Of a stretch of 64,000 nt of DNA, positions 5,581 through 52,581 are shown one piece after another; position 1 is the stretch's first letter, and every line of letters begins with the position of its first letter. Where the stretch lies: the IMG/VR virus record IMGVR_UViG_3300005529_000032, positions 1 through 64,000 of that record; one strand, written 5' to 3'. This DNA comes from a virus. The notes under the pieces are model-generated. The model had not been told where the DNA came from and did no database searches. It was given only the letters and a program-made list of their open reading frames with translations. The position numbers and the translations under genes were made by a program.

Positions 5581-6173
5581 CAGGACTCAGGCTCTTCTTC
5601 TTGCTGCATCGGGCCGCCTTGCTGCTCCCGCGGTCCCCGCTGTTCCTGGTTCTGGTCCTGCGCCGCCTGCATGTGCCGTTTGTTGTAGGCGGCTATCTGC
5701 TGGTCTGCCTGATGACTGGCCTGTGCGATGTTCTGCGGCTCTTCTGCCGAGAGTTGCCTTTGGTTCGCCGGGGGTGGAACTTGTCCGGGAGACGTTCCGC
5801 CTTGGAGCTTCTGCCGGTTCCGGGTGTCGACATCGTCCTTGATCGTCGTTTCCCAGAGTTGCGCCTCCATGGCGCCGCCGCCGTCGAGCTTATTCCCGCC
5901 TCCGGCGAGGTCTTGCTCGTACTGCGCGAAGGCGTCGCTGATGCCGGCTGAGATGTACTCGCGAAGACGCTCTTTCTCGGGAAGGTGCCCGGAAACATCC
6001 CGGACATGGATTCCCTTGCGGAACCGGGTTTCATGGCCCGATGCCTGGTGCGTCTTTTCGGTGCGCTGATTGTCGGACAATTCTTCCCAGCGCTGACCCT
6101 GTGGTCCGCCGTGGGTCTCATCCAGTGCGGCAAGCGCCGCATGCGTCACTTTAGCTACTTGAGATTGATTCAA
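5580..6173 (-). CDS. Helical protein downstream of the capsid gene (possible RyR-like domain)
   Basis: A 197-residue protein. I chose TTG at 6173 as start because GGAGGG lies four bases upstream and the upstream capsid gene ends at 6187; earlier in-frame codons lie inside that gene. The N-terminal 50 residues (VAKVTHAALAALDETHG, W-E-L, N-Q-R) loosely resemble the RyR-type domain seen in phage proteins (a weak match by eye). The rest is Gln/Glu-rich and probably disordered, ending QQEEEPES. A minor capsid or internal head role is a guess from location. Confidence 0.55.
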   Translation of the reverse strand: MNQSQVAKVTHAALAALDETHGGPQGQRWEELSDNQRTEKTHQASGHETRFRKGIHVRDVSGHLPEKERLREYISAGISDAFAQYEQDLAGGGNKLDGGGAMEAQLWETTIKDDVDTRNRQKLQGGTSPGQVPPPANQRQLSAEEPQNIAQASHQADQQIAAYNKRHMQAAQDQNQEQRGPREQQGGPMQQEEEPES

Positions 6174-6186
6174 GAGTCCCTCCTGT

Positions 6187-7458
6187 TTACTGGTAGTAGG
6201 TTCCGAGAGGCAGGTTGAGGATGACGCCTTGCTGGCCAGGGTTGATGCAATACAGGTCATCATCCTTGGTGAGGCCGAACCACACGCCCGCGGCCGGAGC
6301 GCCACTCGCTGCCATAAGTTGAATGAAGCGTGCATCCGGGCCGCTTTTGCCCGGTGTCTCGAAGAAACCGGTGGGAGCGAGACGCGCTTTGCCCCAGTCG
6401 CTCGGAACGATGTAATGAGCTACCGTCGCGTCCTGGTGGATGTCGACGTAATGCGGCACGCCGCCCCAGATGAAGAACTGTTTGCCCTTCAATTTCGGCA
6501 GGCGGTCATAGACGTTGGCCTTGTCGCCTTCGATGAGCGCCATTTGAATCGCCATCATCTGCGAGTAGGCGTAAGCACGCTGCGCCGGCGCGACGATGCC
6601 TATCAGGTTCGGCACTTGGCCGCGATCCATGAGGATGCGGTCATAGAGCGCCATCACTGCTTCCGCGCTGAAACCAGCGGAGCCGTCGACCGACTTCGAG
6701 ATCATCTGGTTTTCAATGCTGCGGTCGACGCCGGCAGTGAGCCCGGTGGACGCGGAACTAATCCAGTACTTCAAGCCGCGCGGACCGGCTGGATTTGCTC
6801 CGGACACGCCTTCGAAGGTGATGACGTCGCCCGCTGTGCCGTTTGGGACGATACCGCTCAGAGTCATCGTGCGAGCGCCGGTGTTGATCTGGGTGGCGTA
6901 CAAAGTGCCCGCAGATTTAAGGGTGGTTTTGGTCGAATCGTAGACCGTGTAGTATTGTCCGCGCCGCAGCAATTGCGTTCCGAACGCGTTGGTCATGGTA
7001 TAGACCGAACTGCCGGAGGCTGAGGAGTGCGCGTTCGAAGTCGCGAGCACGGCGGTTCCGTCGCCGTGGATCACCTTATCCCACAACAATTGGAACTCTC
7101 GGAAGCCGTTCGCCACTGCTTGCAAGAACGGATTCTGTACTGCGACTTTTTTGTTCGTGGTCGCCTTGATCTGCAGCATGTCGAACTCGAAGTTCAAGCG
7201 CATCGAGTAAAACGACTGCAGCATGGCGTTGCCACTTGGCGAGGAGCCTCGTCCCATGTCGCCCAACTGGTTGTCATAGTGGCCGAACCGGCCGCCGAAC
7301 GTAATTTGGAAGGGTACGCGGTAATCTCGTTCGCCGACGATCTCTACCTCGCCCTTGTCGATGAAATCCGACAGAACCTGAAAGTCTTTTTCCATCCAGA
7401 GCGGAAAGAGCTTGGTTCTGACGACTTCAGACTGTTGCCAGATTTGGTTAGTAGCCAT
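6187..7458 (-). CDS. Major capsid protein
   Basis: A 423-residue protein located directly after the scaffold gene, with AGGAG before ATG at 7458. The N-terminus (MATNQIWQQSEVVRTKLFPL) is followed by a domain with long hydrophobic/polar alternation. FGGRFGHYDNQLGDMGRGSS, LIGIVAPAQRAYAYSQMMA and QFFIWGGVPHYVDIHQDA are consistent with an HK97-fold capsid protein: a spine helix, then a P domain with loop insertions. Order portal - scaffold - capsid is the classic one. Length fits an HK97-fold protein with separate scaffold. Assigned by size, order and overall pattern, not by a decisive motif. Confidence 0.8.
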   Translation of the reverse strand: MATNQIWQQSEVVRTKLFPLWMEKDFQVLSDFIDKGEVEIVGERDYRVPFQITFGGRFGHYDNQLGDMGRGSSPSGNAMLQSFYSMRLNFEFDMLQIKATTNKKVAVQNPFLQAVANGFREFQLLWDKVIHGDGTAVLATSNAHSSASGSSVYTMTNAFGTQLLRRGQYYTVYDSTKTTLKSAGTLYATQINTGARTMTLSGIVPNGTAGDVITFEGVSGANPAGPRGLKYWISSASTGLTAGVDRSIENQMISKSVDGSAGFSAEAVMALYDRILMDRGQVPNLIGIVAPAQRAYAYSQMMAIQMALIEGDKANVYDRLPKLKGKQFFIWGGVPHYVDIHQDATVAHYIVPSDWGKARLAPTGFFETPGKSGPDARFIQLMAASGAPAAGVWFGLTKDDDLYCINPGQQGVILNLPLGTYYQ

Positions 7459-9264: not shown

Positions 9265-11628
9265 CTACTGGACCGGACCGGCGGGAGGCGGACCGGCTAC
9301 ACCGTTCGGCAAAGGCGGTATCGGCGAGGCTTGTTGTACGGGCGATGGTCCGACCGGTGGTGTCGGCGCTCCCATGTCCGGAGGTCCCGGAGGTCCTGCC
9401 GGAGCGGGAGGTGCTGCCGATTGCTGTTCGGGAGGTAACCCGGCGCCCTGCAACACCTCGTTCATAAGCTGCGGGAAGTCTTCGAGCTTCGCGCTGAGGG
9501 CCAAGTTCGCCTTGACTGGTGGAGGCGGAGGTGGAGGCGGAGGCGTTGCGAGTGCCTGATGGGCCTGCCAGAATGCTTGTACGTTCTGAAACCCTTGCGG
9601 ATTTGAGTTCCGCGCGTCGCGACCGGGCTTCGAAATCATCCACGTCGCGACCACGGCAACGACAAGCGTATGGTTGTCGAACGGGTCAGGCGGCATGGAC
9701 GGCTGCGGCTCGCCCGGAGATCCATCGGGTCCCGGTTGCCCTGGCATCGGAGGTTCGGCGAGGAGTTGCTCGATGTCCGAAAGAGTCTTTTCTTTCTGGT
9801 CGCGCAGAGCAGATTCGAATCCGGGTACTTGGATGAGCTCGAAAACCTCTTCGATGTTGAGTGGGTCGAGTACGGAGAGGGCTTGCTGCACCTCCGGAGG
9901 GAAGTCTTTAAGCAGGCTGAACACCGCATCCCGACGGTCGCTCAACGTCATTGGGAAGTCGTCGTTCGCTTCAACGTGCCATCCGGACTCGCGCAGTTGC
10001 GCCATGTCCGCAATGTCGGTTGCGCGGCCGTATGCAGTCTGACGCCGTGCGGTCACAGTTCCGCAGCCATACTTGGCGCGCAACTTCACGAGGATAGTCG
10101 CCATCTCCTCGGATGCGATACGCATTTCTTCAGCCTGTGGGGCAAGCTGCATGAGCGCCTGATCCCGGCGTTGTTTCGCTTCGCGGTAAGTCTGCGTTGG
10201 TTGGCCGCCGCCCGAGAGCTCGGGCCGGATGCCCGTGATGTCCTGCATGAGCGTGCGCGCCTGAGTCAGGAAAGGTAAAACCTGATCGCCCAGACGTGCC
10301 GGCGGAATCTGGAAGACACGCTTTGCGATATCGCCATCGACCGGCATCGCCGTCGGGATCAGCTCGTCCGGAACTGCCCGATTGGTGCTTGCCGCTTTGC
10401 GGTCTAATAACTGAGCGTCGAAAATCGTCCGCGTGATCGCCCGCAGGACCGTCTCGAGGGCCATCCCGAAGAGATCGTCAATAGCGCGCTGAATCGGAAC
10501 GGAGTCTCCGGCTATCGGCTTCTCGTGAATTTTCTCGCTGCGTCCCACGCGGCAAACGGTCCACTCATTCTCGACCGCCTGATTGTCGATCTTGCAGGTT
10601 TTTGAGCCAACACGGGCGATATACAGTCCGTCCGAGAACTGGGCTTTAAAAACGGCGCGAGCCTCGGCGTCTTGAATCGCCTCGAACAGGTACGTTGGAA
10701 TCCAGTACTCAGCATGGCGCCAATGGTTGTGCGGCTTGGCTTTCCCTGTGCCCGACGGATTTGTGACGGCGTCCCGCGCTTCCTGTGCTGCGTTGCTCGA
10801 GGCGGAGTAGTCATCGTCCGGAACATCCCCGTCCCGATACTCGTCGAGTGGACCCGGTTGTCCGGCTTGGCCTTTGTACTGCGCGAGCAGCGACCACTTG
10901 GGACGCATCACCTCAAGCCGGAGCGGATTGTTGCGCAACTCCTCGGCTTCATAGGGAATGCTGACTTCCAGAATCGAATAAACCTGGATCTGCGCGTCGC
11001 CATTGGCGTAGGTTGTCGTTCCAGTGACCACTGGCATCGGGGTTCCGTCCGGTGCCATCTGGATCTCAACTTGCGGCTCGCTGGTCTGTCCGTACTTCTT
11101 GGCGTCGGTATCCCAATAGCAGCGGATGAAAGCGGGCCCGGTCACATACTGATGAAACGCGAGTGCTTTCCACTTGCGATCAATCTTGGCCTTGGTCCAG
11201 ATGTCGCGCACTTGGACGTCGGCATTCTGCGACATCTCGAAATCGTCGCTATTGCCCTCCATGTCGGGTACAGCCTTAACGCGCGGTGCGTTCTGGCCCA
11301 TGACCGCCATGTACTTGTAAAGATCTCCGCCGATCACGTTGATTGGAGGAGTCAGTTGGACGGCCGCGCCATTCTCCGAGTCTGCGGAGATGTCGAACGG
11401 AATGTAATCGATGATGTCGCCATAGCCGGAAGTGACCTGCCCTGGGACGGCGAAGTGATTCCCTTTGACGAACTGCCAATTCAGCCGGGCCTGATTGACG
11501 TGGATCTGCCGCTCCATCTCATACGCGTTGTCCAGTGCTGCTTTGATCAGTTGCGTGAGCACGCTATCGTAGTGTCGAATGATCTCATCGTTCGACAACG
11601 CCGCAGGGGCTGGGCCGACTATCTCCAC
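9265..11628 (-). CDS. Portal protein
   Basis: A 787-residue protein in the portal position between terminase/fibre genes and scaffold. Blocks such as RQIHVNQARLNWQFVKGNHF, VIGGDLYKYMAVMGQNAPRV, LMQDITGIRPELSGGGQPT and YREAKQRRDQALMQLAPQAE are the clip-stem-wing type helices of large portal proteins of short-tailed phages (P22-like size). The last 150 residues are a disordered Pro/Gly/Gln-rich tail including nine consecutive prolines. Portal subunits form the dodecameric ring for DNA packaging and ejection. The protein abuts the upstream coiled-coil gene by one base. Confidence 0.85.
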   Translation of the reverse strand: MEIVGPAPAALSNDEIIRHYDSVLTQLIKAALDNAYEMERQIHVNQARLNWQFVKGNHFAVPGQVTSGYGDIIDYIPFDISADSENGAAVQLTPPINVIGGDLYKYMAVMGQNAPRVKAVPDMEGNSDDFEMSQNADVQVRDIWTKAKIDRKWKALAFHQYVTGPAFIRCYWDTDAKKYGQTSEPQVEIQMAPDGTPMPVVTGTTTYANGDAQIQVYSILEVSIPYEAEELRNNPLRLEVMRPKWSLLAQYKGQAGQPGPLDEYRDGDVPDDDYSASSNAAQEARDAVTNPSGTGKAKPHNHWRHAEYWIPTYLFEAIQDAEARAVFKAQFSDGLYIARVGSKTCKIDNQAVENEWTVCRVGRSEKIHEKPIAGDSVPIQRAIDDLFGMALETVLRAITRTIFDAQLLDRKAASTNRAVPDELIPTAMPVDGDIAKRVFQIPPARLGDQVLPFLTQARTLMQDITGIRPELSGGGQPTQTYREAKQRRDQALMQLAPQAEEMRIASEEMATILVKLRAKYGCGTVTARRQTAYGRATDIADMAQLRESGWHVEANDDFPMTLSDRRDAVFSLLKDFPPEVQQALSVLDPLNIEEVFELIQVPGFESALRDQKEKTLSDIEQLLAEPPMPGQPGPDGSPGEPQPSMPPDPFDNHTLVVAVVATWMISKPGRDARNSNPQGFQNVQAFWQAHQALATPPPPPPPPPVKANLALSAKLEDFPQLMNEVLQGAGLPPEQQSAAPPAPAGPPGPPDMGAPTPPVGPSPVQQASPIPPLPNGVAGPPPAGPVQ

Positions 11629-12386: not shown

Positions 12387-12461
12387 TCAGTCACGCGGGG
12401 CTTGTCCGAACCCAGCAAAGGAAGGCCAAGCCCGCATGATTTGCTCTGGACTAGTTCGCAT
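12387..12461 (-). CDS. Possible 24-residue leader peptide
   Basis: The reading frame MRTSPEQIMRAWPSFAGFGQ... is preceded by AGGAGG directly against the ATG (very tight spacing). It contains an imperfect stem (GCGGGGCTTG with CAAGCCCGC, about 12396-12438). It lies between the glycoside-hydrolase-like gene and the portal operon. It may instead be a structured spacer or weak terminator; evidence is limited to the reading frame and the stem. Confidence 0.25.
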   Translation of the reverse strand: MRTSPEQIMRAWPSFAGFGQAPRD

Positions 12462-12477
12462 CCTCCTTTCGCTTTTT

Positions 12478-14949
12478 TTAATGAACGACTACATTCCCTT
12501 TCACGGTCAAGGCGCCGGAGACTGTCGCCGGATTTGTGCTCGAGCCGCCGCCCGAGGTCCAGGCAAGGGACACCACCGTCGCTGCGGGTACGGTGTAGGT
12601 AGACCCGGCAGAAACGGTGCTCGTTGCCATGGTGATGTGGTTAAACACAGTCTCGTTATTGTCGTCTGCGCCCGTCGTGTTGTTCAGACGGGTTTGCGTC
12701 AGAGTGCCGGCCGGAACATCGCCTGCCCAGGTTAGGGTCGCCGAACTCGAAGGGTCGGTATTGATGAGCAGGACAGACCGCGCCGTCCCATTTTTGAACG
12801 CATAGGCGAAAAGGCTCGGAACATTACTCTCGGCGGGTAGACCATTCAACGCGGAAACGCTATAAGTTGGCCTGCCACTAGTGAAGCTCGCGCTGTACAT
12901 CGTGCCCTGAATCGCGCCGTTCGCGATGAGGAGTCCCAATCCTGCCGGACGCGCGATGTAGCTTGCGCTGATGGAAGCGCTCTCGGAGCCGCCGATCTCC
13001 GGAAAAAGACCAAACAGCGGCAGCACTGTTGAATCCGTTGTGCCCGTGCCGGCCGTCTGGTTCAGGTCCCAGAAATTCTGAGGATCGTTGTAAACCCGTA
13101 GCCGCTCCATTGCGGCCATGATCTGCATCGGCCCATTCATCAGCGCACCGACATGCGTCGCAAGGTTCGCGCCGGTTGCAGGAGTCGAGTACCGGAGCTC
13201 GTTCGAATTGAACTCGTAAGTGACGATCTTCACTGTCGGCCGCGTGGTCGTAGCGACCCAGTTGTTATAAGCCACGTGCCAGCCGTTTGTGGCGTCATTC
13301 GTGTTGGCCCAGGCGGAAGCAAGATCCGGCTGCCACTCATGCGCCAAGGTATCGATGGTGGTCAGTTGCTCGCCGATATAAGAAGCAATTTCAACCGCAT
13401 CATGATAGGCATCCGCATCATGCGCGTCCTGACAGGAAGCGGTACTAGCGATGTCGCCGTGACAATTGAGATTCAGGGTGTAAAAACTGGTCGAGTAACT
13501 CGCCATGCCCTTCATCGCCCCGAACGCGACCGAGGCTAACTGGCCATAGCGGATGTAACTCTGTGCGCCGCTGCCGCGGGGAGACATTGACTCGCCATTG
13601 AAGTCTGAATTCCACGCTTCATTGCCCAAGCTTAGATAAATGTGCGGCAAAGTAGTCGCGAAGGATGCGCTATGCCCCAGCGCGGCTCGCTTCGAGCCGT
13701 AGGTGGTTCCTGTTCCGCCGCTGATGAAATCGATCAGGTTCTGATCTTCGGCAGTGGTGAAGCTCGTCGGCACGACAATCCACGGCGCCACGTTGAGCAA
13801 CTCGCACAACTGTAGGAAGTCGAAAAGACCCTGGCGGGTAGCGGTCCCTCCGTTCCGATCATTTGCCGTCGGATAATCGCCCGTATTGCCCGTGCCGTAA
13901 TTCGACGTTTTTCGCCCGAGTTGCGGAGTGATCCAGTTATCGAGGCTCTCGCCAACGTGCTCGTCCCAGAGCCGGAGCGTCCCTGGGTTGATCGACTGTA
14001 GCAGATGTACAGCCTCGTCCCGGTAAACCGTCGTGTTCGCCGCGTCCTGTCCACTGGTCTTGGTTAATTGGACATCATCGAGCTCGAGGACGCCCTGCCC
14101 GGTTGTGCCGAAGTTGATCGAAACAGTCCCGGCTGGCGTGCTCGAGGTTTCAGTACCGGTGAAGGTGAGCGTATATTGCGCCCAACTCGTCGTCGGGGTA
14201 AAGCCCTGGGACGCACTAACGCCTCCAGTGACGCCGCGGCTGACCGACGCTGTGATGGTCGAACTCCCGGAAACGCGCTTCATCCAAAACGTGAAACTGT
14301 AATTGCCACTGAAGAGCACATAATTGTTGTCATTCGTCGAGTCAATGTACGTCGTCAGGTTGACCGAGGAAGACGCGGCCGAGGTGTCGAGCTTTGCCGC
14401 TTGCGTGCCTTGCGTGCTTCCGGATAAGTCGGTTGTTTCTGGTCCGTACGTCGCACCGCCAGAGATGCCGGCAGCCCATCCCTGAATGAGCGTGCTCGTT
14501 TGCCGGATCTCCATATAGTCGCCTGCTACCGGAGCTTGTGAGCACGCCGAACTGAACGTGTAGGTAATGGGCTGGGTGTTCGAAGCGTTGGTGTTGTTCC
14601 CGCTGAGTGTGCCGCCGCAACTCGTGATGCCCGTTGCGCCCACCTTGAACTGGAACGTCGCGCCCGCCCAGAAATTCGTCGGAGCGCCGTCATAAATGTC
14701 ATCCGCGACACAAGTCGTTGTCGTGCCGTTCGCGCAGTAGATGATTTGCGATTTGACGAAACCTTCAAACCCCGGATTATTGAATCCGACGAGGTTCTTA
14801 TACATTTGCCCCGAGTCGTAATAATTGGTAGCCGCGAAGTTGATGCCGATCCGGTTCGGACTTGCCTGCACTGTCGTCGCCTCGCTGAGTGTGAGGGTTT
14901 GCGCCTGCACCGCCGTTGCTAGGAGCGCAAGCGAAAAGAGTGTTTTCAC
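12478..14949 (-). CDS. Exported glycoside hydrolase-like protein (clan GH-A type)
   Basis: An 823-residue protein. Residues 1-16 are a Sec signal peptide (MKTLFSLALLATAVQAQ, AxA cleavage). Residues 50-300 contain a carbohydrate-binding-type beta-sandwich ending LELDDVQLTK. From about 305 a TIM-barrel-like domain follows, with LGNEAWN (candidate acid/base Glu444) and VTYEFNSNE (candidate nucleophile Glu579), resembling alpha-L-arabinofuranosidase/GH51-like enzymes. A C-terminal beta domain follows. The gene is in the fibre block and overlaps its neighbour by ATGA. It could be a virion depolymerase for host surface glycans, or an enzyme secreted by a lysogen. The enzyme class is inferred from two motifs. 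Confidence 0.6.
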   Translation of the reverse strand: MKTLFSLALLATAVQAQTLTLSEATTVQASPNRIGINFAATNYYDSGQMYKNLVGFNNPGFEGFVKSQIIYCANGTTTTCVADDIYDGAPTNFWAGATFQFKVGATGITSCGGTLSGNNTNASNTQPITYTFSSACSQAPVAGDYMEIRQTSTLIQGWAAGISGGATYGPETTDLSGSTQGTQAAKLDTSAASSSVNLTTYIDSTNDNNYVLFSGNYSFTFWMKRVSGSSTITASVSRGVTGGVSASQGFTPTTSWAQYTLTFTGTETSSTPAGTVSINFGTTGQGVLELDDVQLTKTSGQDAANTTVYRDEAVHLLQSINPGTLRLWDEHVGESLDNWITPQLGRKTSNYGTGNTGDYPTANDRNGGTATRQGLFDFLQLCELLNVAPWIVVPTSFTTAEDQNLIDFISGGTGTTYGSKRAALGHSASFATTLPHIYLSLGNEAWNSDFNGESMSPRGSGAQSYIRYGQLASVAFGAMKGMASYSTSFYTLNLNCHGDIASTASCQDAHDADAYHDAVEIASYIGEQLTTIDTLAHEWQPDLASAWANTNDATNGWHVAYNNWVATTTRPTVKIVTYEFNSNELRYSTPATGANLATHVGALMNGPMQIMAAMERLRVYNDPQNFWDLNQTAGTGTTDSTVLPLFGLFPEIGGSESASISASYIARPAGLGLLIANGAIQGTMYSASFTSGRPTYSVSALNGLPAESNVPSLFAYAFKNGTARSVLLINTDPSSSATLTWAGDVPAGTLTQTRLNNTTGADDNNETVFNHITMATSTVSAGSTYTVPAATVVSLAWTSGGGSSTNPATVSGALTVKGNVVVH

Positions 14950-15590
14950 TGCACGCCCGCGCGGATGTCCGGCATCTCGTCAGCTTGGTCGCCCGAAAAG
15001 GCAATCGTGGCCGGGAATCCGGTCGTGTAATTATTCGAATCGAATTGGTTGTGCGCTCCTGCCGTTCCCCATCCGAAGGAAACACCATTACCGCCCGTAG
15101 CGCTTGCCACAAGCTGATAAGTTGAGCCGCCCGTGAGTGTCACTGTCGGAATGGACGCGCCCGAGGAATTGACAAACGCGGTGTGCTCGACCCAGGACAA
15201 GGATGTGCTGGGGACAGTGATCGCCGCCGATCCCTGCGCGATCAGCGTGTGATCATGGGTTCCGTCGACGGGTCCATAAATCGCGACTCGCGCCGTTCCC
15301 GCAGAAGCGCCGGCATTCTCGACGTAGACAGCTAATGAAACGAGGGTCTTACTGCCGGAACCGGGACACGTGGCATAGGGAGCGCCCGCGCTGGTATCTA
15401 GGCCCACATAAAAGTTAGTGAGGTCGTCCAGGCTGGTCCCTATCGGCGTGCCGGTCGATGTGCTGGCCACTGCTCCGAAGTAAGTCGTTGTTGCTGCGCC
15501 GCTGCCCTTACTTCCCGGACCAGGGAAGGGCAGGAACTGTGCACAGCAAACACTTGCGGCAATCAGTGCGATCACAAGAAGGGTCCGCAT
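14946..15590 (-). CDS. Exported beta-sandwich protein of the fibre block
   Basis: A 214-residue protein. The start at 15590 is chosen because it overlaps the upstream stop (TGATG) and begins a clean signal peptide, MRTLLVIALIAASVCCAQ. The mature part is Gly/Ser/Thr-rich with strands such as LVSLAVYVENAGASAGTARV and VTLTGGSTYQLVASATGGNG, resembling jelly-roll or discoidin-type binding domains. Likely a surface or receptor-binding accessory; the family is not recognised. Confidence 0.55.
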   Translation of the reverse strand: MRTLLVIALIAASVCCAQFLPFPGPGSKGSGAATTTYFGAVASTSTGTPIGTSLDDLTNFYVGLDTSAGAPYATCPGSGSKTLVSLAVYVENAGASAGTARVAIYGPVDGTHDHTLIAQGSAAITVPSTSLSWVEHTAFVNSSGASIPTVTLTGGSTYQLVASATGGNGVSFGWGTAGAHNQFDSNNYTTGFPATIAFSGDQADEMPDIRAGVQ

Positions 15591-18541
15591 CAGCGAGTCA
15601 CTCTCCAATTCAGCGTCACTGCGCCTGGAGTGATGCTCGAGGACGTACTGTTACAAACTTTGAAATTGACATTGTTCGCCGTCGGGTAAGGGTATATCTC
15701 CAATCCGCCCGAGGTCGACGCCGCATAGCCGGTAACACCAGTGATGTCGGCATTTGGAGTGAATTGAATCACGTCGGTTGTTGCGACGCCAGAAGCGGAG
15801 ACGGTAACAACTGTCGCGCATGTGGCCGAGGAGATCGCGCTTGTACCCAGCGCGGCCGTGCCCGACGCAATAAGTTGCACTGGACTGACCCAACTACCAA
15901 CGCCTGCAGTTGTGACACTGAGGTATTGCCCGTTTGAAGCTGGCGCTGCGGCAGGAAGCGTCACGGTATAAGCGGTCACAGACGTTGGAGCCTGCAGCCC
16001 GATGCTGTTCGCCGCCGCCGAGTTAGCAGTGCCTTGTCCAAGCTGTACAAATCCAGCCGTCGTGCCGCCGCTGGTGAATCCGCCTGTAGCTGTCAGGACG
16101 TGGGTCGAGTTGTTATAGCTGAGGTTTGTCGAGTCGCCGCCGAACGCGCCCGAATTGTTGTACTGGACCGCCGTGTTACTCCCTGCAGGCGTGCCATTGC
16201 CACTTACTGCCCAAGCCGAAGACTGACAGATATAGAGTGCGCCGGTATCGGTGCGGCTGTAGAGCGAGCCATTCACGCACGACCCCGTTGGAGCGCCGGT
16301 TCCACGGCACCAGCTTTCGCCGGACAGCGTTGAGCCGAGCACCACGCAATTTGCTGCAGCCAAGTTGCCCGTGTTGTTCGAGGTCGGAGCCGCCGCGCCC
16401 GCCACAATGCCGTTATCAGTGAGTGTCCCGTTCGGCGCAACATTGCCGATGAGCCCCTGCGAGGCACCGCCCGCCGTTCGATACACGTTTGCCGAAACAA
16501 CGCCGGTTGCGTTCGCGCACTTCACGTTGATGGTGTGACTGCTATCCAACGTTGTAGGACCGACGGAGGTCGAAGCCGCGGCACTCGCCGTCGTTTCGCC
16601 TCCGACAGGATCGAGGCCCGTACAAGTGAAGCTATAGCTTCCGGCCGCGCCGCCGACAATTGTCCCGATGGATGCAGCGGGCACGGAGGCAGCAACAGCC
16701 TTGAGGCCGCTCGAGCCGGAAATCGCCGAGACAGTCAATGGCTCATTGGCAAACGTTACGCCTTGGTAACCGAACTGCGCCACCGTCTGCGATCCTTGCG
16801 TCGCGTCTTTGATGTACACGTAAGGAGCAGAACCAGATTGTTCGCCGACCTGCAGCGTGTCCATGTCCGTGCGCGGGCTTTGAAACTGCATCTGCGCGGT
16901 CGCGCTCGAAGATGGCGAATAGATCGTTACTTGCGGGCCATAAATACGCATGTTCCCGTTCAGGATTGTTTGCTCTGTGCCGCTGCTCCCGCCACATTGC
17001 CGCAGTCCGAGTACGTCAACATTGGTCTGCGAGGCGTTGTAGGAACTGTTTAGATTCGGGTCGGGGCCGGAGCTCGTGACTATCGTGTTGTAACCGCCGT
17101 TGGCTTGTGTGCCATCGCACATACCGTTCAGGGTCAAGTTTGTCGCGCCCGCGGACGTGTTGATGAAAAAATCGCTCGACCCGGCGTAGCCTGTATTCGC
17201 GCCGCTCGCTGGTCCGGTGGTGTTCCACAGTCGGTGAACTGCAGCGATGGACGTGTTTGAGCCTTCGAGGTCAAACGCAAACGCGAGCGGGGAATCAGGC
17301 TCTGCGCCAAAGTAGAGATTGTTGCCGTGATCTTCGAACGAGATGGCCGAGTCTCCGTATGGGTGATCATGAAACGAATGAATCGCGCCGCCTTGAAACC
17401 GCATGGCAGCGATGTTCGCGATTCCCACTGGTTGTAAATCCTGCGTCGTCGAATCAAACACGTTTTGCAAGTCAAAAATATAGTTCCACTTCCCGGTGTT
17501 TTGAATCTGGACATACAGGTTCGCCGGCGAGTCGCAGTTGACTCCTCCCGGAAACGTATAAGTTCCCGTGGTGACTGCTCCGCCCGATACTGGAACGGTT
17601 AAGTTACTCGGCATTGTGCCGCAAACCCATTTCGAAGTATTCGAAGCGTTCGCTGTGCCGTTGCCGTTTCCGCCGCGGCCCAAGATCCAGACCGTTGCAG
17701 TTGCGCCGGTGTACCCGGTAGTGGTTCCGCCGCCTGCGGTCACAATGACGGTGATCGTTCCGCCGCTAATGGATGCGGATGCCGTCGCGCGTGGGGCCGC
17801 TCCGCCGATTGTGGTGTCGGTCAGATTCGCGATAATCAGGTTGCCGTCCGAGCCATTGGTCGCCGTCGAGCCGAACTGAACCATGCTGGTCCCATCAGTG
17901 CCGCCGTTGTATTTGTTGTCGCGAATCTGGGTCCCGTAAATGCCGTACAGTCCCATCACCTTCGGGGCGTTGCTCTGCGCATTGAAATAAATTCCCCGGA
18001 TGTGCCCTGCCGGTTTCGGGCTACCGGGCGCGATGTAGACCATAGGATCAGTGATCAGGCACGTCTGATTGACCTGCGACTTATCCCACCCTTGCCCCTC
18101 CATGCTCAACGTATAGCCGGAAGCTGACCGCGGCAACGCAAGGTCCGCGCATTGGCTGTAGATGTTGTCGCCAGCAACGAGCACAGCCGCTTGATCATTC
18201 GTTGTAATCCAGTTGATTGCCGTCGCTTTCGCGCAATCCCATTGCGTCGTGTAATTCGTCGCTGCAACCGTGCAGGACGTCGGAAAGCCGTCGGCATAGA
18301 ACTTTGTGTTGATCTGCGGAGCAAAGATAGTCTTATTGCTCAACGTTTGCGTGTCGGTTGTGCCGACGATCGAGCCAGTCGGAGCGGGTACGGTCCCCTG
18401 CCACGAGCTCGAGCCACTGTACACCGTCAGGCCGGCACTGCCGCTCGGCCAAGTTTGCTGACCGCCGCCCGGCCCATTGATCACAATTGTCTGTGCGAAC
18501 GCGACGGTGCAGCAGACGGAAGCGAGAAACCAACGAATCAT
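15590..18541 (-). CDS. Large tail-fibre-like protein with signal peptide
   Basis: A 983-residue protein whose ATG overlaps the upstream TAA (TAATG). It starts MIRWFLASVCCTVAFAQ, a signal peptide. Early LSNKTIFAPQINTKFY resembles the phage fibre 'LTNKTI' motif. The middle contains parallel-beta-helix-like repeats with 'G-x-N-x-G' turns. The C-terminal part has AVQYNNSGAFGGDSTNLSYN, a tail-fibre repeat motif, and a final beta domain ending VTLNWRVTR. Several Cys pairs (SCTVAATNYTTQWDC, QCADL, TCLI) would suit disulfides outside the cytoplasm. Receptor-binding fibre is the likely role. Confidence 0.7.
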   Translation of the reverse strand: MIRWFLASVCCTVAFAQTIVINGPGGGQQTWPSGSAGLTVYSGSSSWQGTVPAPTGSIVGTTDTQTLSNKTIFAPQINTKFYADGFPTSCTVAATNYTTQWDCAKATAINWITTNDQAAVLVAGDNIYSQCADLALPRSASGYTLSMEGQGWDKSQVNQTCLITDPMVYIAPGSPKPAGHIRGIYFNAQSNAPKVMGLYGIYGTQIRDNKYNGGTDGTSMVQFGSTATNGSDGNLIIANLTDTTIGGAAPRATASASISGGTITVIVTAGGGTTTGYTGATATVWILGRGGNGNGTANASNTSKWVCGTMPSNLTVPVSGGAVTTGTYTFPGGVNCDSPANLYVQIQNTGKWNYIFDLQNVFDSTTQDLQPVGIANIAAMRFQGGAIHSFHDHPYGDSAISFEDHGNNLYFGAEPDSPLAFAFDLEGSNTSIAAVHRLWNTTGPASGANTGYAGSSDFFINTSAGATNLTLNGMCDGTQANGGYNTIVTSSGPDPNLNSSYNASQTNVDVLGLRQCGGSSGTEQTILNGNMRIYGPQVTIYSPSSSATAQMQFQSPRTDMDTLQVGEQSGSAPYVYIKDATQGSQTVAQFGYQGVTFANEPLTVSAISGSSGLKAVAASVPAASIGTIVGGAAGSYSFTCTGLDPVGGETTASAAASTSVGPTTLDSSHTINVKCANATGVVSANVYRTAGGASQGLIGNVAPNGTLTDNGIVAGAAAPTSNNTGNLAAANCVVLGSTLSGESWCRGTGAPTGSCVNGSLYSRTDTGALYICQSSAWAVSGNGTPAGSNTAVQYNNSGAFGGDSTNLSYNNSTHVLTATGGFTSGGTTAGFVQLGQGTANSAAANSIGLQAPTSVTAYTVTLPAAAPASNGQYLSVTTAGVGSWVSPVQLIASGTAALGTSAISSATCATVVTVSASGVATTDVIQFTPNADITGVTGYAASTSGGLEIYPYPTANNVNFKVCNSTSSSITPGAVTLNWRVTR

Positions 18542-18879
18542 TAACGTCCCCAATAGCTGATCTGCGCGGTTCCGCCGCCTGAGTAAGTCAGCAGGTTCGC
18601 GCGCGCGTAAATGACCGGCTTCCCGTCGACATGGAACATGGTGGAACTAGTGCAACTCTGAGTGCCGCTGAGATCGAACCAGTTCACGTTGTCCTGCGAA
18701 CCTTCGAGCCGCACGGTGCAGGTCGCGGGCGAGCCGACAACTACCTGCAGGGTGTGATTCTGCGCCTGCGATAACCAACCTGGCGTTGTGCCGGCTGCGG
18801 AGAGCGTCGCAGTATAAGGAGCCGGAGATTGCGCGACCAGCAATCCGGCAGAAAATAAGAATAGTAGAAAACGCTTCAT
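18541..18879 (-). CDS. Small exported beta protein in the fibre block
   Basis: A 112-residue protein with signal peptide MKRFLLFLFSAGLLVAQ and a mature domain, VRLEGSQDNVNWFDLSGTQ then KPVIYARANLLTYSGGGTAQ. It resembles small carbohydrate- or matrix-binding sandwiches in phage structural modules. It starts one base after the terminase stop and shares TAATG with the fibre gene downstream. Function inferred as surface binding. Confidence 0.6.
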   Translation of the reverse strand: MKRFLLFLFSAGLLVAQSPAPYTATLSAAGTTPGWLSQAQNHTLQVVVGSPATCTVRLEGSQDNVNWFDLSGTQSCTSSTMFHVDGKPVIYARANLLTYSGGGTAQISYWGR

Positions 18880-18880
18880 G

Positions 18881-20902
18881 TCAGTTCACCCTGTGCCGGG
18901 AGCTCGAGGCGCGCGGCAGGCTGAATCCTTTCGTCTGAGATCTGTGCTGTTTGTCGTAACGCGCCGCTTGCGTCTGCGCGATCATCGCGAGCCGCGTGGG
19001 GTCCGTCAATTCCTGGCCGAACGCTGCGCGATAGTGTTCCTGGACCCGGACGATCTCCTCGCCGAGCCAGAGGCCCTTCGGCATGACCGCCTCGAGATCC
19101 TTAAAGGCCATCATGGTGTGGCGCAGGGAATCTAAGCCGTCGTCGCCGCCGATGCCGTCGATCGCGTTAAATTTCTGGACATCTTCCTGCCGCGGCGGTT
19201 GATCTGTCTTGGCTTCGCCCAGTCCGCGTATCGCTTCTTTGCAGCGCCGCCAGAGCACCATCTTCGGCAGAACCTCGGGTCCGCGCACTTGCCGGGTTTT
19301 CGAGAGCTCGCGTTCATACTGCTCGACACCCGCGCGCCGGAAGACCTCGGCTAACCGCGCCTTTAGCTCGTCCTCAGTCTCGTTCAGGATCGGCCGGAAA
19401 CGCAGCATCTCCACGAGGTAGCTCCACCCGGAGATCCGGTCTGTGTTCGCCGGCTTGAGCGCAATCACTAGCTGTCCCTGTGCGAACTCCTGCTTGCGCC
19501 GCTCAAACATTTGCTGCGCCATCTGCGGGTCTTTCGACATGGCGAGCCGCTCGTCGTCGTTGTAGCGGAGGAGGAACGCGCCGTATGGCCCCAGGACCTG
19601 CTTGATGCCGTCCGCCATCTGCTCGGCCTTAGTCTTATCCGCATCGGTCTTACTAAACGCGTCCGGCGAAAGCGCAATGGTGACTTGCTTCTCCGGCAAG
19701 AACTCGAGATCCGGCAGCCACCATTTCGCGAGCGTGACGCCCATCTCGAACGAGCCGACCAGACGGACCGCTAACTCGTCATAGATGTGTATCCGCTTGT
19801 CCTGTTGGTTTTTGCACGCCTTATGGAAAACTGCGTTGTGCGAAAAGCCCCAGTCGCCGCCGCCAAAGCGCGGCCACCAGGACTTGAGCTCCGCCTCCTC
19901 GATGACGTGCTGCGCCCAGGGATACCGCTCCTTCTCGACATCTGTGACGGGCCCGTCGGGCCGGAACTCTGAGAAGTAAATGCCGGAGCCCGCGTCCCAG
20001 TCGCCCTCAATCCAGTGCTTCCGTGTGATCTCGTCTTGCGCGAGCAGCATGCCCTCGTACTGCTTGTTCGTGCGTAAGTAAGGGTTATCCTCCAAACGCA
20101 TCGGGATGAAGATGCGGATCAATCCCGTGATCGGGTCGCGCATCGGCGTGTTCCAGGGGATGAGCTTGCCGTCTCCGCTGCGCACTTTGACGAAGCGGTT
20201 CTTCACCCACTCGTGCCCGTCGCCATCCGGGTTTGTGGTCGAGAGGATCTGGCAGCGCAACGGCGGAAAGGTCTTCTTGACAAGTTGCCCAGTCTGCGCG
20301 TCCCGGACCGTGTGTACGCGCAGTTGCTTTTTGTTGCGCAGCGAGCCGAGCAGTTTTAGATACCACCGCTCTTCGGGAATCTGCGTTAGCTCATCGAGCC
20401 CGATCTTAGTGAGTCCCTGGCCGCGGTATTTTTCGTACGCGTCTTTGTCGCCGAGGTGATTGGTATAGATCTTTGCGCCCGAGGGGAAGTCGAAAACCGT
20501 CGGGTCATCCTTCGCCTTGCCGCCAAAGGGACGAAAGAACTCCTTGCACTCGTCCACGAACTCGGCCATCGACTGATACTCTTTGCGCAACAGAAGGCCG
20601 CGGAAGCTCGGCTCGTTCAGATACGAATAGCGCGCCGGGTCGTCGGGCTCGAGCCGCGGGTCTCCCATGGCGCACCACGCAATCAGCGCGGAGCTCTTGC
20701 TGCCGCCGCGACGGCCGCCGATCAGAATCTCATCGTAAGGACAGAGCAGGGTCCATGTCTGGGGCCCAATGTTCGACGCCCAGTTGGTGCTGCCATCTTT
20801 CGGATTGAGGAATTTAACCTGAAATCCCGGATCGAGGCCCGGCTGCTCATATTGGAGCCAGTGCGGTACGTCCGGAATGGGATAACTTAGTGCGCCGTCC
20901 AT
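18881..20902 (-). CDS. terL: Terminase large subunit
   Basis: A 673-residue protein from ATG 20902. Earlier in-frame residues lie inside the upstream gene and look like shadow coding. A deviant Walker A, IGGRRGGSKSS, is at residues 61-71 and Walker B, TKIGLDE, near 164-170. The coupling region LSTTNPDGDGHEWVKNRF follows, then an RNase-H-like nuclease with GGGDWGFSHNAVF and IALSPDAF as candidate acidic metal ligands. The motor cuts concatemeric DNA and drives it into the prohead through the portal. It lies between two fibre genes rather than next to a small terminase. Confidence 0.9.
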   Translation of the reverse strand: MDGALSYPIPDVPHWLQYEQPGLDPGFQVKFLNPKDGSTNWASNIGPQTWTLLCPYDEILIGGRRGGSKSSALIAWCAMGDPRLEPDDPARYSYLNEPSFRGLLLRKEYQSMAEFVDECKEFFRPFGGKAKDDPTVFDFPSGAKIYTNHLGDKDAYEKYRGQGLTKIGLDELTQIPEERWYLKLLGSLRNKKQLRVHTVRDAQTGQLVKKTFPPLRCQILSTTNPDGDGHEWVKNRFVKVRSGDGKLIPWNTPMRDPITGLIRIFIPMRLEDNPYLRTNKQYEGMLLAQDEITRKHWIEGDWDAGSGIYFSEFRPDGPVTDVEKERYPWAQHVIEEAELKSWWPRFGGGDWGFSHNAVFHKACKNQQDKRIHIYDELAVRLVGSFEMGVTLAKWWLPDLEFLPEKQVTIALSPDAFSKTDADKTKAEQMADGIKQVLGPYGAFLLRYNDDERLAMSKDPQMAQQMFERRKQEFAQGQLVIALKPANTDRISGWSYLVEMLRFRPILNETEDELKARLAEVFRRAGVEQYERELSKTRQVRGPEVLPKMVLWRRCKEAIRGLGEAKTDQPPRQEDVQKFNAIDGIGGDDGLDSLRHTMMAFKDLEAVMPKGLWLGEEIVRVQEHYRAAFGQELTDPTRLAMIAQTQAARYDKQHRSQTKGFSLPRASSSRHRVN

Positions 20903-22791
20903 CCCCCGCCGCCGGTGCAATACGCGAGTAAGTGATAACTGCCGCCGCCCGAGATATTCGCTCCATAAACGTTTGTGTTCGCGTCCTTGACCGGCTGCAT
21001 GGTTCCTTCGTTCGTGCCATTGCAAGCCGGTAGTTGGATCACATTGACCGGGGTCATCATGATCGCCATCCCGCCCACAAATAACGTCGTCGGCGCTACT
21101 CCCGTGCCGGCCTGCCCGGCTGATATCTGCGCTTGCGAGCCGAACATGCTATACGAGACAAAGCCCGCGTTGTTTGGGTCCGAAGAGTTTGTTGAGCGGA
21201 AGCCCGACTCGGTCGCTGTGCCGTTCGGCGCCGTCGTGATGTAGCTGATGGTGTTGGTCTGGCCGATCGCCTGGAAGCGCACGCCGCCTGTGCCGAGACG
21301 TGGGTCGTAAGTCCAGGAGTAACCGCCGCCAAAGTTCCAAGTGCCGACGGACCCATTGCCGAGCACAACTTCGTTCGAGGCGGTGCAGTAAGCCCGATAC
21401 CCGATGCAAGTCGAGTTAGTCAGGATCGATGAGGAGTTCTTGGTTGCATTTTCTCCCAACAGCGTCATCTGACTATCCGTCGTAATGTGTTTATTGACAT
21501 TGTTGATGTCGAGGAAGTCGTTGCCCGAATAAAATCCGATTGCCGTGTCGTCATTCGCGCCGTCCTGCACAAAGAACAAAGAACTGCCGCCGATCGCGGT
21601 CAGATGGTTGTTGACACAGACAGTCGGCACGCTTCCGTCGGCATTTGTGCATTGGCCGGCGTTGGTTCCGACAGCAGTGTTATAGAGTCCCCCGGTCTGA
21701 TCCTGCAGCGCGGAAGCTCCAATACAGACGTTGTCTTCACTCGCGCCCACTCCGCCCACAAACAGATTGCAAGCCGCGACGCCGACGCCAGTGTTAAACC
21801 GTCCGTGCTGCGCATCCTGCAAGGTGCTCGGCCCGATAGCGACGTTGTTCGCGCCATCGATGTTCGCGTTGAGGGCTTCGTCTCCATCGGCGGTGTTTAG
21901 GAATCCACCGATGTTCTGCTGGCAACTGAGAACCCCGGTGCAAGTGTTGCGGAAGCCGTAACGATTAAACTCCAGCGAGTCGACGCCGGTGGCGGTGTTA
22001 AAGAATCCCGAGCCGTTTGATGCAAGCGCGTTTGTTCCGCCGCCAAAGTTCCAATACCCACTGCTGTTCGCCGCGAGTACATTGAAGCCAAAGCCAGAAT
22101 TGAACGTGCCGTCTAAGCCGAACGCATCGGTGCGGCCTGGTACGGTCGAGGCTAAGGAGTTCCCGCCCCACCCGATGTTCTCTGCCGAGAGATTGCTCCG
22201 CAACTCCGCGGCGTTGCTACTGCCGGTCGCGCCGTCGAGTTGCGCGATGCTGGCCGGTTGCAGGCTGACAATCTGCTTGACCGAGATCGCGCTCAACGTC
22301 CCGTGAAATCCGGCCGCCTCAGACTCGACTGTGCTTGGAGCAGGCGTGAAGGTAACGCTTGCGTTTCCAGTGGTCCCCGCAATCAGATCCATGGACGTCG
22401 GGTTGACGCCCGTGTCTGAGCAAGACCAAAACGTTGTCGCACTCACAGACCCGAGAGCCACTGTGACGGCGCCGCAGCCGGTGTAAGTCCACGCAATCAA
22501 ATAATGCGTGCCGGTCGTGACAGCGAAAGCGGGCGAGGTGAGAGCGCCCGTCGAATTGACGGCAAAGGTGTAAGTGCCGCCGCCGCTATTGGTGACTCCG
22601 CTTCCAACGGTCCATGTTGCCGGCGCGGTGTTTAGCTCTGTGGTGGTCGCAGAGTTTGTGGTCTGGGGTATTTGTAGCGGGTTCTTGTTCCGGATCTGCG
22701 TCTGGAAATCGAACTGAGATTGTTGCCCATTCGCCAGTCCTGCTGTAACAAGCAGAATGGCTAGGCAGGTCTCAATACAGCGGGATTTCAT
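20887..22791 (-). CDS. YadA-head-like fibre protein with signal peptide
   Basis: A 634-residue protein with N-terminal signal peptide MKSRCIETCLAILLVTAGLA (cleavage near ANGQ). Residues 60-200 form a beta-sandwich. From about 210 to 400, short repeats of the form 'G-x-x-N-T-A-x-G-x-x-A-L' (GFFNTATGVDSLEFNRYGFR, NVAIGPSTLQDAQHGRFNTG, YNTAVGTNAGQ) match left-handed beta-roll heads of YadA/Hep_Hag trimeric adhesins. The C-terminus GGSYHLLAYCTGGGGWTAH resembles fibre tip ends. Probable trimeric adsorption fibre; ends 16 bases into the terminase gene. Confidence 0.7.
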   Translation of the reverse strand: MKSRCIETCLAILLVTAGLANGQQSQFDFQTQIRNKNPLQIPQTTNSATTTELNTAPATWTVGSGVTNSGGGTYTFAVNSTGALTSPAFAVTTGTHYLIAWTYTGCGAVTVALGSVSATTFWSCSDTGVNPTSMDLIAGTTGNASVTFTPAPSTVESEAAGFHGTLSAISVKQIVSLQPASIAQLDGATGSSNAAELRSNLSAENIGWGGNSLASTVPGRTDAFGLDGTFNSGFGFNVLAANSSGYWNFGGGTNALASNGSGFFNTATGVDSLEFNRYGFRNTCTGVLSCQQNIGGFLNTADGDEALNANIDGANNVAIGPSTLQDAQHGRFNTGVGVAACNLFVGGVGASEDNVCIGASALQDQTGGLYNTAVGTNAGQCTNADGSVPTVCVNNHLTAIGGSSLFFVQDGANDDTAIGFYSGNDFLDINNVNKHITTDSQMTLLGENATKNSSSILTNSTCIGYRAYCTASNEVVLGNGSVGTWNFGGGYSWTYDPRLGTGGVRFQAIGQTNTISYITTAPNGTATESGFRSTNSSDPNNAGFVSYSMFGSQAQISAGQAGTGVAPTTLFVGGMAIMMTPVNVIQLPACNGTNEGTMQPVKDANTNVYGANISGGGSYHLLAYCTGGGGWTAH

Positions 22792-23693: not shown

Positions 23694-23855
23694 TTACGGG
23701 TGCCGGAACGCTCCGAAAATCAGCAAAAGCACGAGGATGAGGACCAATAATCCTAAGCCGCCGCTCGGATAGTACCCCCAGTTTGCCGAGTAGGGCCACA
23801 CGGGAAATACTCCGAGCGTAAGCACCAGGAGCACGATAATCAGTACGATCAACAT
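23694..23855 (-). CDS. DUF3309-family membrane peptide
   Basis: A 53-residue protein, starting MLIVLIIVLLVLTLGVFPVW and continuing with PYSANWGYYPSGGLGLLVLI. The pattern of two transmembrane segments around 'PxWPYSxxWGYxPSGGLG' is the signature of DUF3309. GGAGGAG precedes the ATG, and the gene overlaps the end of the methyltransferase gene by seven bases. Function of the family is unknown; a membrane role is clear from the sequence. Confidence 0.75.
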   Translation of the reverse strand: MLIVLIIVLLVLTLGVFPVWPYSANWGYYPSGGLGLLVLILVLLLIFGAFRHP

Positions 23856-25249
23856 TCCATCTCCTCCAAAAACTCGATTAGCTTCACGCCGATATACTCG
23901 GCTTTCTCTGGGACCACTGCATTACCAAGCCGGGAGAGCCGCTTGGTGCGGTTGCTCATAGCTCGGTCCAACTGATCGGAAAGCCCATCAGCCACTCCAC
24001 GAAGCGGGGATTCAAGCGCCGGCGCGAGGTCTGGCCGTCCGGCGAGGATGAGTGGCCAGATGGCGTCTCCGGGTCCTGGCGCGTAGCGAAGCGGTGCTCC
24101 ACGAAGTTCTGGAGTTGCTCGCCCTTCTGTGTCCCGCTCCGCTCCTGATAACTCTGCTTGTTCGGCGTCCGGTAGTCGCGTGCCGCTGGCGTCGGAAAGA
24201 ATCGCGCCTGCTGGTCGAGTCCCATCTCGTCCTTCCGGTCCCCGCTGCGGCTCCGAAACGAATCCGTTGCGGGAGTCTGCCAGATGGTGGCCTCCTCGGA
24301 AAGAATCTTGCCGCCCGTCCCCGGCGTGCGTGTCGACGCCCGGACTTGCTCCTTCACTGGCGTCGGCCAGTTGTTCGCCTGCTTCGCGAACTCCCCGCCG
24401 CCGCAGCCGCCGACTTTGCCCTTGTGGTCCCGGTTGCTCATTCCGTGCGGCGTGTGCCACAACTCCGCTTGGTGCGCCAATTGCACCGTCGGGTCCAGCG
24501 GACTGACGCGACCGTGGATCTTGTTCGGATGGTGATCCCGCTCCATTGGGGTGCGCCATAAATCGGTCGCTGTTGCTAGATCGTGCGGTTTGTAGTGACA
24601 GTCGGTCGCTGCGAAGCCCGGTCCGCGCGCATGCGCGTGCGCTTCCGGTGTCGGCCATGTGGTCGCGACTACCGTTAAGTCCTGATAGCCGCCGTTCTCC
24701 ATCGAGCGCCGCCGTGAGGGTCCGCCTGCGTTGTTCGCGTTGTCCTCGGTCGGTGTAGGCCACGATGAACACGCGCTTGCGGATATGACTGGCTCCGAAG
24801 TCCGAAGCTCGTAAACAGAACCAGACACACACATACCCGAGTCCGGAAAGGTCTCCGAGTACTCGTCGCATTGCATCGTGAGTAAGGAGACCTGGTGTGT
24901 TCTCAATAAGCACGAGCCGGGGTCGAAGCTCCCCAATAAGACGGGCGAACTCAAGCCAAAGACCCGAGCGAGTTGGCGCGCCATCCGCATCGAAGAGTCC
25001 GGCCCGCTTTCCGGCTTGGCTAACGTCCTGGCAGGGGAAGCCGCCGGCCAATAGGTCAACGGCGTCGAGATCTCGTCCGGATACATGTCTGATATCTCCA
25101 TGCCGCTTTACTCCCGGCCAATGTTTTTTCAGAACCTTCGTGCAAAACGCATCTACCTCGATCTGCCATTGACACTCCCATCCGGCGCGCTCCAGACCTA
25201 AGTCGAGTCCACCAATACCCGTGAACAACGAACCAAAGGTGAACTTCAC
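23849..25249 (-). CDS. dcm: DNA cytosine-5 methyltransferase
   Basis: A 466-residue protein. Motif I FTGIGGLDLGLE is at residues 9-20, catalytic PCQ at 72-74 (Cys73), ENTPG near 116 and motif VIII RKRVFIVAY near 158. Motifs IX-X, KRLSRLGNAVVPEKA, are near 440. The target-recognition stretch (about 168-400) is unusually long and low in hydrophobics. It carries repeats of (M/V/L)A(D/H)(A/P/S/T), for example MADTGSARA and LADASEGA. Methylation likely protects phage DNA from host restriction or marks it. The gene overlaps the primase/helicase stop by ATGA and carries a second long frame across its centre. Confidence 0.9.
   Translation of the reverse strand: MKFTFGSLFTGIGGLDLGLERAGWECQWQIEVDAFCTKVLKKHWPGVKRHGDIRHVSGRDLDAVDLLAGGFPCQDVSQAGKRAGLFDADGAPTRSGLWLEFARLIGELRPRLVLIENTPGLLTHDAMRRVLGDLSGLGYVCVWFCLRASDFGASHIRKRVFIVAYTDRGQREQRRRTLTAALDGERRLSGLNGSRDHMADTGSARACARTGLRSDRLSLQTARSSNSDRFMAHPNGAGSPSEQDPRSRQSAGPDGAIGAPSGVVAHAARNEQPGPQGQSRRLRRRGVREAGEQLADASEGASPGVDTHAGDGRQDSFRGGHHLADSRNGFVSEPQRGPEGRDGTRPAGAILSDASGTRLPDAEQAELSGAERDTEGRATPELRGAPLRYAPGPGDAIWPLILAGRPDLAPALESPLRGVADGLSDQLDRAMSNRTKRLSRLGNAVVPEKAEYIGVKLIEFLEEMEC
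23956..25101 (-). CDS. WPTP-repeat protein frame nested inside the methyltransferase gene
   Basis: A 381-residue uninterrupted frame on the same strand, shifted relative to the methyltransferase. It contains SSWPTPTEDNANN, TTWPTPEAHAHARG, LWRTPMERDHHP, LWHTPHGMSNRDHKG, NWPTPVKEQVR, IWQTPATDSF and FFPTPAARDY, ending LNPRFVEWLMGFPISWTEL. I recognise this 'WPTPxxxD ... FVEWLMGFPxxWT' pattern from proteins seen beside methyltransferases in phages. Each WPTP repeat is in register with a MADT/MAHP-type repeat in the other frame. It could be a true overlapping gene or an annotation shadow. The start codon is uncertain. Confidence 0.4.
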   Translation of the reverse strand: MEISDMYPDEISTPLTYWPAASPARTLAKPESGPDSSMRMARQLARVFGLSSPVLLGSFDPGSCLLRTHQVSLLTMQCDEYSETFPDSGMCVSGSVYELRTSEPVISASACSSWPTPTEDNANNAGGPSRRRSMENGGYQDLTVVATTWPTPEAHAHARGPGFAATDCHYKPHDLATATDLWRTPMERDHHPNKIHGRVSPLDPTVQLAHQAELWHTPHGMSNRDHKGKVGGCGGGEFAKQANNWPTPVKEQVRASTRTPGTGGKILSEEATIWQTPATDSFRSRSGDRKDEMGLDQQARFFPTPAARDYRTPNKQSYQERSGTQKGEQLQNFVEHRFATRQDPETPSGHSSSPDGQTSRRRLNPRFVEWLMGFPISWTEL

Positions 25250-52269: not shown

Positions 52270-52581
52270 ATGGGACGTAAACACGCCACCAAGTCGGCCA
52301 AGTCGACCAAGGCCATTAACGAAGCATTCGGAAAGGCTCTCCGAATGCTTCGCGAATCAAAGCAGTGGTCGCAGGAGGAATTTGCCCGGCAATGCGAGCT
52401 CGACCGCACTTACATTTCCCTCATTGAGCGGGGGAAGCAAAGCCCCACACTAAGAAATGTTCAAATATTTTGCCGTGGATTGGATATCTCGCTGGTCGAG
52501 CTATTCGCGCTGGTTGAAAAGAACCTGCCGCACGACAAATATCACTGCACTTCCGCCGGCACTGCGAAGTCGGGCCGATGA
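52270..52581 (+). CDS. XRE-family (Cro/CI-like) repressor
   Basis: A 103-residue protein. Residues 19-80 (FGKALRMLRESKQWSQEEFA, RQCELDRTYISLIERGKQSP, TLRNVQIFCRGLDISLVELF) form a complete XRE helix-turn-helix. There is no peptidase or dimerisation domain, so it is Cro-like or a short repressor. It is the last gene of the rightward operon and converges with the giant gene (40-base overlap). The ACTAGT cluster upstream of the operon is its likely operator, by inference. Confidence 0.75.
   Translation: MGRKHATKSAKSTKAINEAFGKALRMLRESKQWSQEEFARQCELDRTYISLIERGKQSPTLRNVQIFCRGLDISLVELFALVEKNLPHDKYHCTSAGTAKSGR

Follow-up and report, generated by a model that had tools for sequence, protein, structure and literature searches.

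Tailed phages normally join their fibres in the cytoplasm, and the locus described here raises the question of why a phage should place signal peptides on a series of fibre-like proteins encoded around its terminase gene. The locus lies in the window, that is, the whole stretch of 64,000 nucleotides that was analysed, which is part of a virus record of 70,593 bp (IMGVR_UViG_3300005529_000032). Because the ends of the record repeat each other directly over 80 bp (record positions 1-80 and 70514-70593), the genome is probably complete (or circularly permuted). Genes were called simply as longest open reading frames, and the viral contigs used for comparison are of uncertain completeness. The 70.6-kb genome also encodes a VapE-type helicase, an integrase, a weak podovirus capsid match (6187-7458) and a giant protein of 4252 aa (52542-64000, on to record position 65300) with DarB-like antirestriction and methyltransferase/helicase family matches.

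The five genes had been described in the earlier note as interleaved with the terminase and overlapping each other, and this layout was confirmed. All five open reading frames are present on the minus strand, in a tightly coupled run that includes the gene of the terminase large subunit (18881-20902, minus strand; PHROG 979, E 1.4e-27), whose start at 20902 was inferred from its overlap with the stop of the gene at 20887. The genes at 15590 and 18541 and those at 14946 and 15590 overlap by one base, and those at 12478 and 14946 by four. Two starts were corrected, most likely to 15590 for the gene whose end is at 14946 and to 18541 for the gene whose end is at 15590; for the latter the list of open reading frames gives 15590-18553. 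The downstream limit of the block is a P22-like portal gene (9265-11628, minus strand; Pfam P22_portal E 5.8e-6, PHROG 156).

Signal peptides were predicted with a rule of our own, which scores a net positive n-region, a ten-residue hydrophobic h-region and small residues at positions -3 and -1. All five proteins said to begin with Sec signal peptides scored strongly (4.4-5.0), and the terminase showed none by this rule. The predicted cleavage sites follow MKTLFSLALLATAVQA, MRTLLVIALIAASVCCA, MIRWFLASVCCTVAFA and MKRFLLFLFSAGLLVA, each directly before Q, and MKSRCIETCLAILLVTAGLANG, before QQ. Among the 70 gene calls of the complete record only these five reach a score of 4.0. Together with the terminase they make up the six-gene block, an arrangement expected by chance with a probability of about 6/C(70,5) = 5e-7. 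Two plus-strand calls at 35034 and 36949, with scores of 2.5 and 3.9, look spurious. The five mature proteins contain 7, 1, 16, 2 and 12 cysteines. Judging from these signals, the infected cell should export fibre-like proteins instead of keeping them at the site where particles are built. Export of every fibre-like protein of this phage, which was also considered, is rejected by a fibre-like protein of 769 aa that has no signal (record 67958-70267; 7958-10267 of contig L002) and is a candidate for the ordinary virion fibre.

The label of a fibre block fits part of the set. It is supported by the 634-aa protein encoded at 20887-22791 (minus strand; signal score 4.4), which matches PHROG 4636 (tail spike, E 1.8e-14) and has NTAVG-type head repeats; its PHROG label is tail spike/virion structural. 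This protein resembles the tail spikes of SPO1 (gp2.52), P-SSM2 and others, the likeness to SPO1 and P-SSM2 lying in the repeat region; four of these spikes were examined and have no signals, the SPO1 and P-SSM2 ones included. A pattern scan of viral contigs found no homologues of it. The small beta-rich protein of 112 aa with two cysteines (18541-18879, minus strand; signal 4.7) gave a weak match to the major tail protein family PHROG 9522 and no match in cultured phages. The label is also supported by the fold of the C-terminal module of the signal-bearing fibre/spike-like protein of 987 aa (15590-18541, minus strand), described below, and does not extend to the protein at 12478, which weak evidence marks as glycosidase-like.

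When the 987-aa protein was compared with 2.9 million viral contigs, 39 loci were found, nearly all matching only its last ~93 residues. We call this C-terminal module of ~94 residues CTD93; in the window the domain has 96 residues, with two conserved cysteines (15593-15880, minus strand). The first 20 members are 61-83% identical to the window copy, and the rest of their proteins is mostly unrelated. A scan with the CTD93 alignment gave 85 viral loci, and in about 75 other proteins, all from uncultured phages, the domain always lies at the extreme C-terminus. No significant match was found in cultured phages and plasmids, nor among Pfam and PDB sequences. In one of these loci the domain follows a signal peptide directly and forms a minimal protein with no shaft (L070, 9899-10279).

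The AF2 model of CTD93, built on 77 sequences, is a confident all-beta domain (pLDDT 96.4, pTM 0.85), in which the two cysteines are nearly invariant. Its best fold matches in the PDB are tailspikes (Pam1, K64-1 S2-4, phi297 gp61 and LKA1 gp49), with TMq of 0.39-0.53 and E-values of 0.1-0.6, so that these matches are suggestive only. Among viral models the best matches (TM up to 0.71, probability 1.00) are mostly uncultured-phage proteins, tail fibre proteins and proteins of the pectate-lyase type among them. The modelled fold is like that of a tailspike C-terminus.

The export signals of the window recur with this domain. By the same rule, 70 of 75 distinct CTD93 proteins with a complete N-terminus (about 93%) carry a signal, as compared to 23 of 658 genes (3.5%) lying more than four genes away. 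At the threshold of 4.0 the count is 68 of 73; of the five misses, L057 and L085 have clear lower-scoring signals, L076 has no signal at all, L097 is an unclear case and L044 is interrupted by a masked base. The next gene downstream is signal-bearing in 63 of 75 loci (84%) and the second next in 43 of 67 (64%); at about position +5 the rate has fallen close to background. Cysteines make up 1.66% of the exported cluster proteins as compared to 0.60% of their neighbours without signals, which fits an oxidising compartment. Twin-arginine (Tat) signals are found in cluster genes of seven loci (L025, L030, L031, L032, L037, L062 and L097) and lipobox signals in a few. Since the type of signal changes while the mature motif stays, export, rather than a hydrophobic tail as such, seems to be the trait kept by selection. 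The export reading of the earlier note is thus strongly supported by signals at 93% in about 70 other phage loci and by the Tat replacements, and the export step itself is strongly predicted. It is very improbable that the hydrophobic stretches are structural tails of virion proteins: the signal calls come from a rule-based predictor only, but a basic start, a hydrophobic core and an AxA pattern followed by Q are found throughout, twin-arginine and lipobox signals replace them, and a stretch of this kind is absent from the spike relatives of cultured phages.

At L076 (5795-12376) signals are missing from the CTD93 protein, from its beta-helix-like partner and from a small third protein alike, so that in this one case the block seems to switch compartment as a unit. 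The locus serves as a naturally occurring control for the exported blocks.

The gene following CTD93 encodes what we consider its partner. In the window this is an exported protein (14946-15590, minus strand; signal 5.0) whose gene start overlaps the CTD93 stop; its signal ends in CCA and its mature N-terminus is QFLPFPGPG, a putative docking motif. A PGPG directly after the predicted cleavage site occurs in 46 of 77 next-gene proteins as compared to 1 of 1281 other genes, in variants such as ..LPFPGPG, ..MPWPGPG and ..GMGPGPG. The domains of the partners vary: Laminin_G_3 was found in 7 of 66 partners, Gly_rich_2 in 5 and an arabinofuranosidase catalytic domain in 4, and cellulase and F5/8C domains were also seen. 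The CTD93 proteins themselves and other cluster proteins have domains of beta-helix, fucosidase, BNR, M28 and similar families. The N-terminal segment of L024 gave no match in cultured phages.

The partners were sorted, after inspection of the data, into types with an aromatic or aliphatic residue before PGPG (A), with PGPG otherwise preceded (B), with a QY.P[SA]G-type start (C) and with an [F/I]xVGP-like tail at the C-terminus (E). Position 40 of the accompanying CTD93 is A in 22 of 29 type A loci and W in 2 of 29, whereas W40 is found in 17 of 17 type B loci and W40 with N41 in 5 of 5 of type C. All seven type E loci have D41 and K64, the latter being found in 0 of 51 loci of types A-C. These subtype-specific positions look like contact residues, and from co-occurrence and pairing we infer that the partner N-terminus would dock on CTD93. 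However, the pairing is not statistically independent evidence, because few of the changes lie on supported branches: an independent-pairs test found one such change (as many as five when the best tree is used), which is below significance. The pairing could also reflect co-inheritance of neighbouring DNA. Types A-C are open to this explanation since the two motifs adjoin in the DNA, and type E is less easily explained by linkage, since its tail is encoded at the end of the partner gene that lies away from CTD93. A comparison of mature N-termini with upstream virion genes gave 14 matched pairs as compared to 2.2 expected and is likewise confounded by linkage.

The last gene of the block (12478-14949, minus strand; signal 4.7) has a GTG start and encodes an exported protein of 823 aa, for which the evidence of a glycosidase-like enzyme is weak. 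All eight of its PDB profile matches are arabinofuranosidases, but with E-values of 0.26-0.79, and an AF2 model from two sequences only reached a pLDDT of 34. A signal-bearing relative, 33% identical over 755 aa, lies directly after a divergent CTD93-like gene in L110; N443-E444 and Y578-E579 are conserved, a Glu pair like that of clan GH-A. GH51-like arabinofuranosidases have their catalytic NE and E in a TIM barrel. The protein also ends in a short tail similar to those of exported genes in L053, L044, L075, L085 and L087 (for example SGALTVKGNVVVH, STIKGLVLGGPAVIH and FGSVVFQGTVKLQ), which is possibly another docking tail.

An exported enzyme or lectin complex could digest or loosen the polysaccharide of the host or of its neighbours before or at lysis and so aid release and spread, CTD93 and PGPG acting like scaffold and dockerin. 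The glycosidase-like protein, its signal-bearing L110 relative and the arabinofuranosidase, cellulase, fucosidase, BNR and M28 domains of the clusters speak for such a complex. We nevertheless consider it unlikely, as Sec alone would bring it only to the periplasm of a diderm host and many of the tips, lectin-like or Gly-rich, lack an enzyme domain.

As to the origin of the block, the proposal of a captured host cassette of secreted proteins finds no support for its core, CTD93 being present in at least 85 viral contigs as compared to 1 of 84,980 bacterial genomes and 3 of 396 Acidobacteriota genomes; enzyme parts of the 12478 type may be of bacterial origin. A T9SS-type bacterial sorting domain, also considered, is disfavoured by this rarity in bacterial genomes and by the lack of a Pfam match. 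In the Acidobacteriota genome G078, the CTD93 gene, the PGPG gene and the second gene after CTD93 all bear signals and are followed by terminase- and portal-like genes (read by eye), and because this cluster stands beside phage-like genes, at least some hosts of CTD93 phages are Acidobacteriota. The same genome, together with the integrase of the window phage, would suit lysogenic conversion, in which a lysogen displays the proteins at its surface to its own benefit. This reading is improbable, since coupled, overlapping genes in a terminase-portal operon should be silent in a lysogen and CTD93 is very rare in bacterial genomes.

The signal-less neighbours of the clusters, whose functions are known as family tallies only, include portal, head, protease and terminase families upstream and endolysins downstream, and fibre genes usually lie between virion and lysis genes. 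The block behaves as an inserted cassette, because in the related phage L003, whose terminase is 34% identical, the terminase and portal genes lie near each other and the block is missing from the space between. Adjoining the cassette, genes that by eye resemble nucleotide-sugar dehydrogenases/epimerases were seen in L044 (11811-15064) and an acyltransferase-like gene in L053 (8472-9044).

Taken as a whole, the block is probably an exported, modular fibre-plus-tip cassette, a reading drawn from sequence comparison. It would be a mobile cassette of phages that encodes exported proteins resembling tail fibres, with a two-gene unit as its core. In the first protein, a signal peptide would be followed by a fibre or spike body that varies and, at the very end, by CTD93, which with its two conserved cysteines probably caps the shaft and may trimerise it. 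The second would carry a signal, a PGPG-type docking peptide at its new N-terminus and a variable tip that binds or cleaves carbohydrate. Both are probably made late, alongside packaging and tail genes, and would be carried across the inner membrane by Sec (sometimes Tat), where disulfides would form and the docking peptide would bind CTD93 and in this way fix the tips to the shafts. Further enzymes with signals, such as the glycosidase-like protein at 12478, may go along. The complexes would most likely meet the virion at or after lysis, to serve as receptor-binding or depolymerising spikes. Against this cassette stand the normal joining of fibres in the cytoplasm, the signal-less fibre candidate, the shaftless L070 protein, the weak fold E-values (0.1-0.6) and the few independent changes in the pairing.

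Attachment to the virion, taken alone, stands in our judgement a little short of even, and we lean to it because of the gene position, the spike-like fold and L076. A free role as decoy, surface mask or enzyme complex is nearly as likely, because the genome has the signal-less candidate at 67958-70267 and L003 has no block at this place. As decoys or surface masks outside the virion, acting in the periplasm, on the outside surface or in the lysate, the proteins would occupy host receptors or sugars and block superinfection or the loss of progeny to debris. The export signals, some of them of the lipobox type, the separate fibre candidate, the situation in L003, the carbohydrate-binding tips and the predicted export of CTD93 alone in L070 would agree with decoys. 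This role is on the whole rather unlikely, as a signal-less block of like make-up in L076 fits a virion part better, the genes belong to a virion operon, and the large size and spike fold exceed the needs of a mask. That widespread tailed phages build receptor-binding fibres outside the cytoplasm, by joining CTD93 and docking peptide in the periplasm, with pickup by virions at or after lysis, is a generalisation that we offer tentatively and with the balance somewhat against it.

Several known systems share part of these features. The tailspikes LKA1 gp49, phi297 gp61 and Pam1 resemble CTD93 proteins in part of the fold (with weak E-values), the C-terminal position of the domain and carbohydrate-active bodies, but to our knowledge these spikes with a C-terminal beta-sandwich have no export signals, whereas the window proteins have signals and a docking partner. 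In the T4-type gp37/gp38 pair, two adjoining genes likewise encode a conserved shaft end and a partner N-terminus, with some glycine-rich tips, but assembly is cytoplasmic and signals are absent. Superinfection-exclusion lipoproteins of phages, for example Llp of T5, are phage-encoded, exported to the envelope and touch phage receptors, but are small lipoproteins and not fibre-like. Auxiliary metabolic genes of soil viruses include signal-bearing carbohydrate enzymes (CAZymes); the enzymes described here differ from these as members of a conserved set of genes that includes CTD93 and its PGPG partners. CTD93 proteins have the spike-like body and fold and the virion-gene position of ordinary fibres but not their lack of a signal.

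No earlier description of exported tail fibres came up in our search of the literature (open-licence papers). A signal peptide on a protein of the receptor-binding type is commonly read as evidence that the protein comes from a bacterium and not from a phage, and the absence of signal peptides has been taken to indicate phage origin (PMC6199706); in five lytic phages, 0-2 signal peptides each were reported (PMC5723332). If the cassette reading is true, assembly or use of fibres outside the cytoplasm would be common among environmental phages. CTD93 with PGPG would be a simple marker for finding exported fibre sets, some 'secreted' viral enzymes may be explained as parts of one system, and the CTD93/docking pair would be a candidate plug and socket for the exchange of receptor-binding tips.

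Two further observations were made. In L004, another terminase relative, small signal-bearing proteins are encoded in the interval that separates the terminase from the genes next to it and also behind a capsid-like gene (5983-7231 and 12392-12910), so that signal peptides may extend, among the small proteins of packaging operons, beyond the CTD93 loci. In the window, a C5-type DNA methyltransferase-like open reading frame of 466 aa (23849-25249, minus strand) is overlain across its middle, in another frame, by one of 381 aa with repeated WPTP-type motifs (23956-25101, minus strand), a possible case of dual coding.
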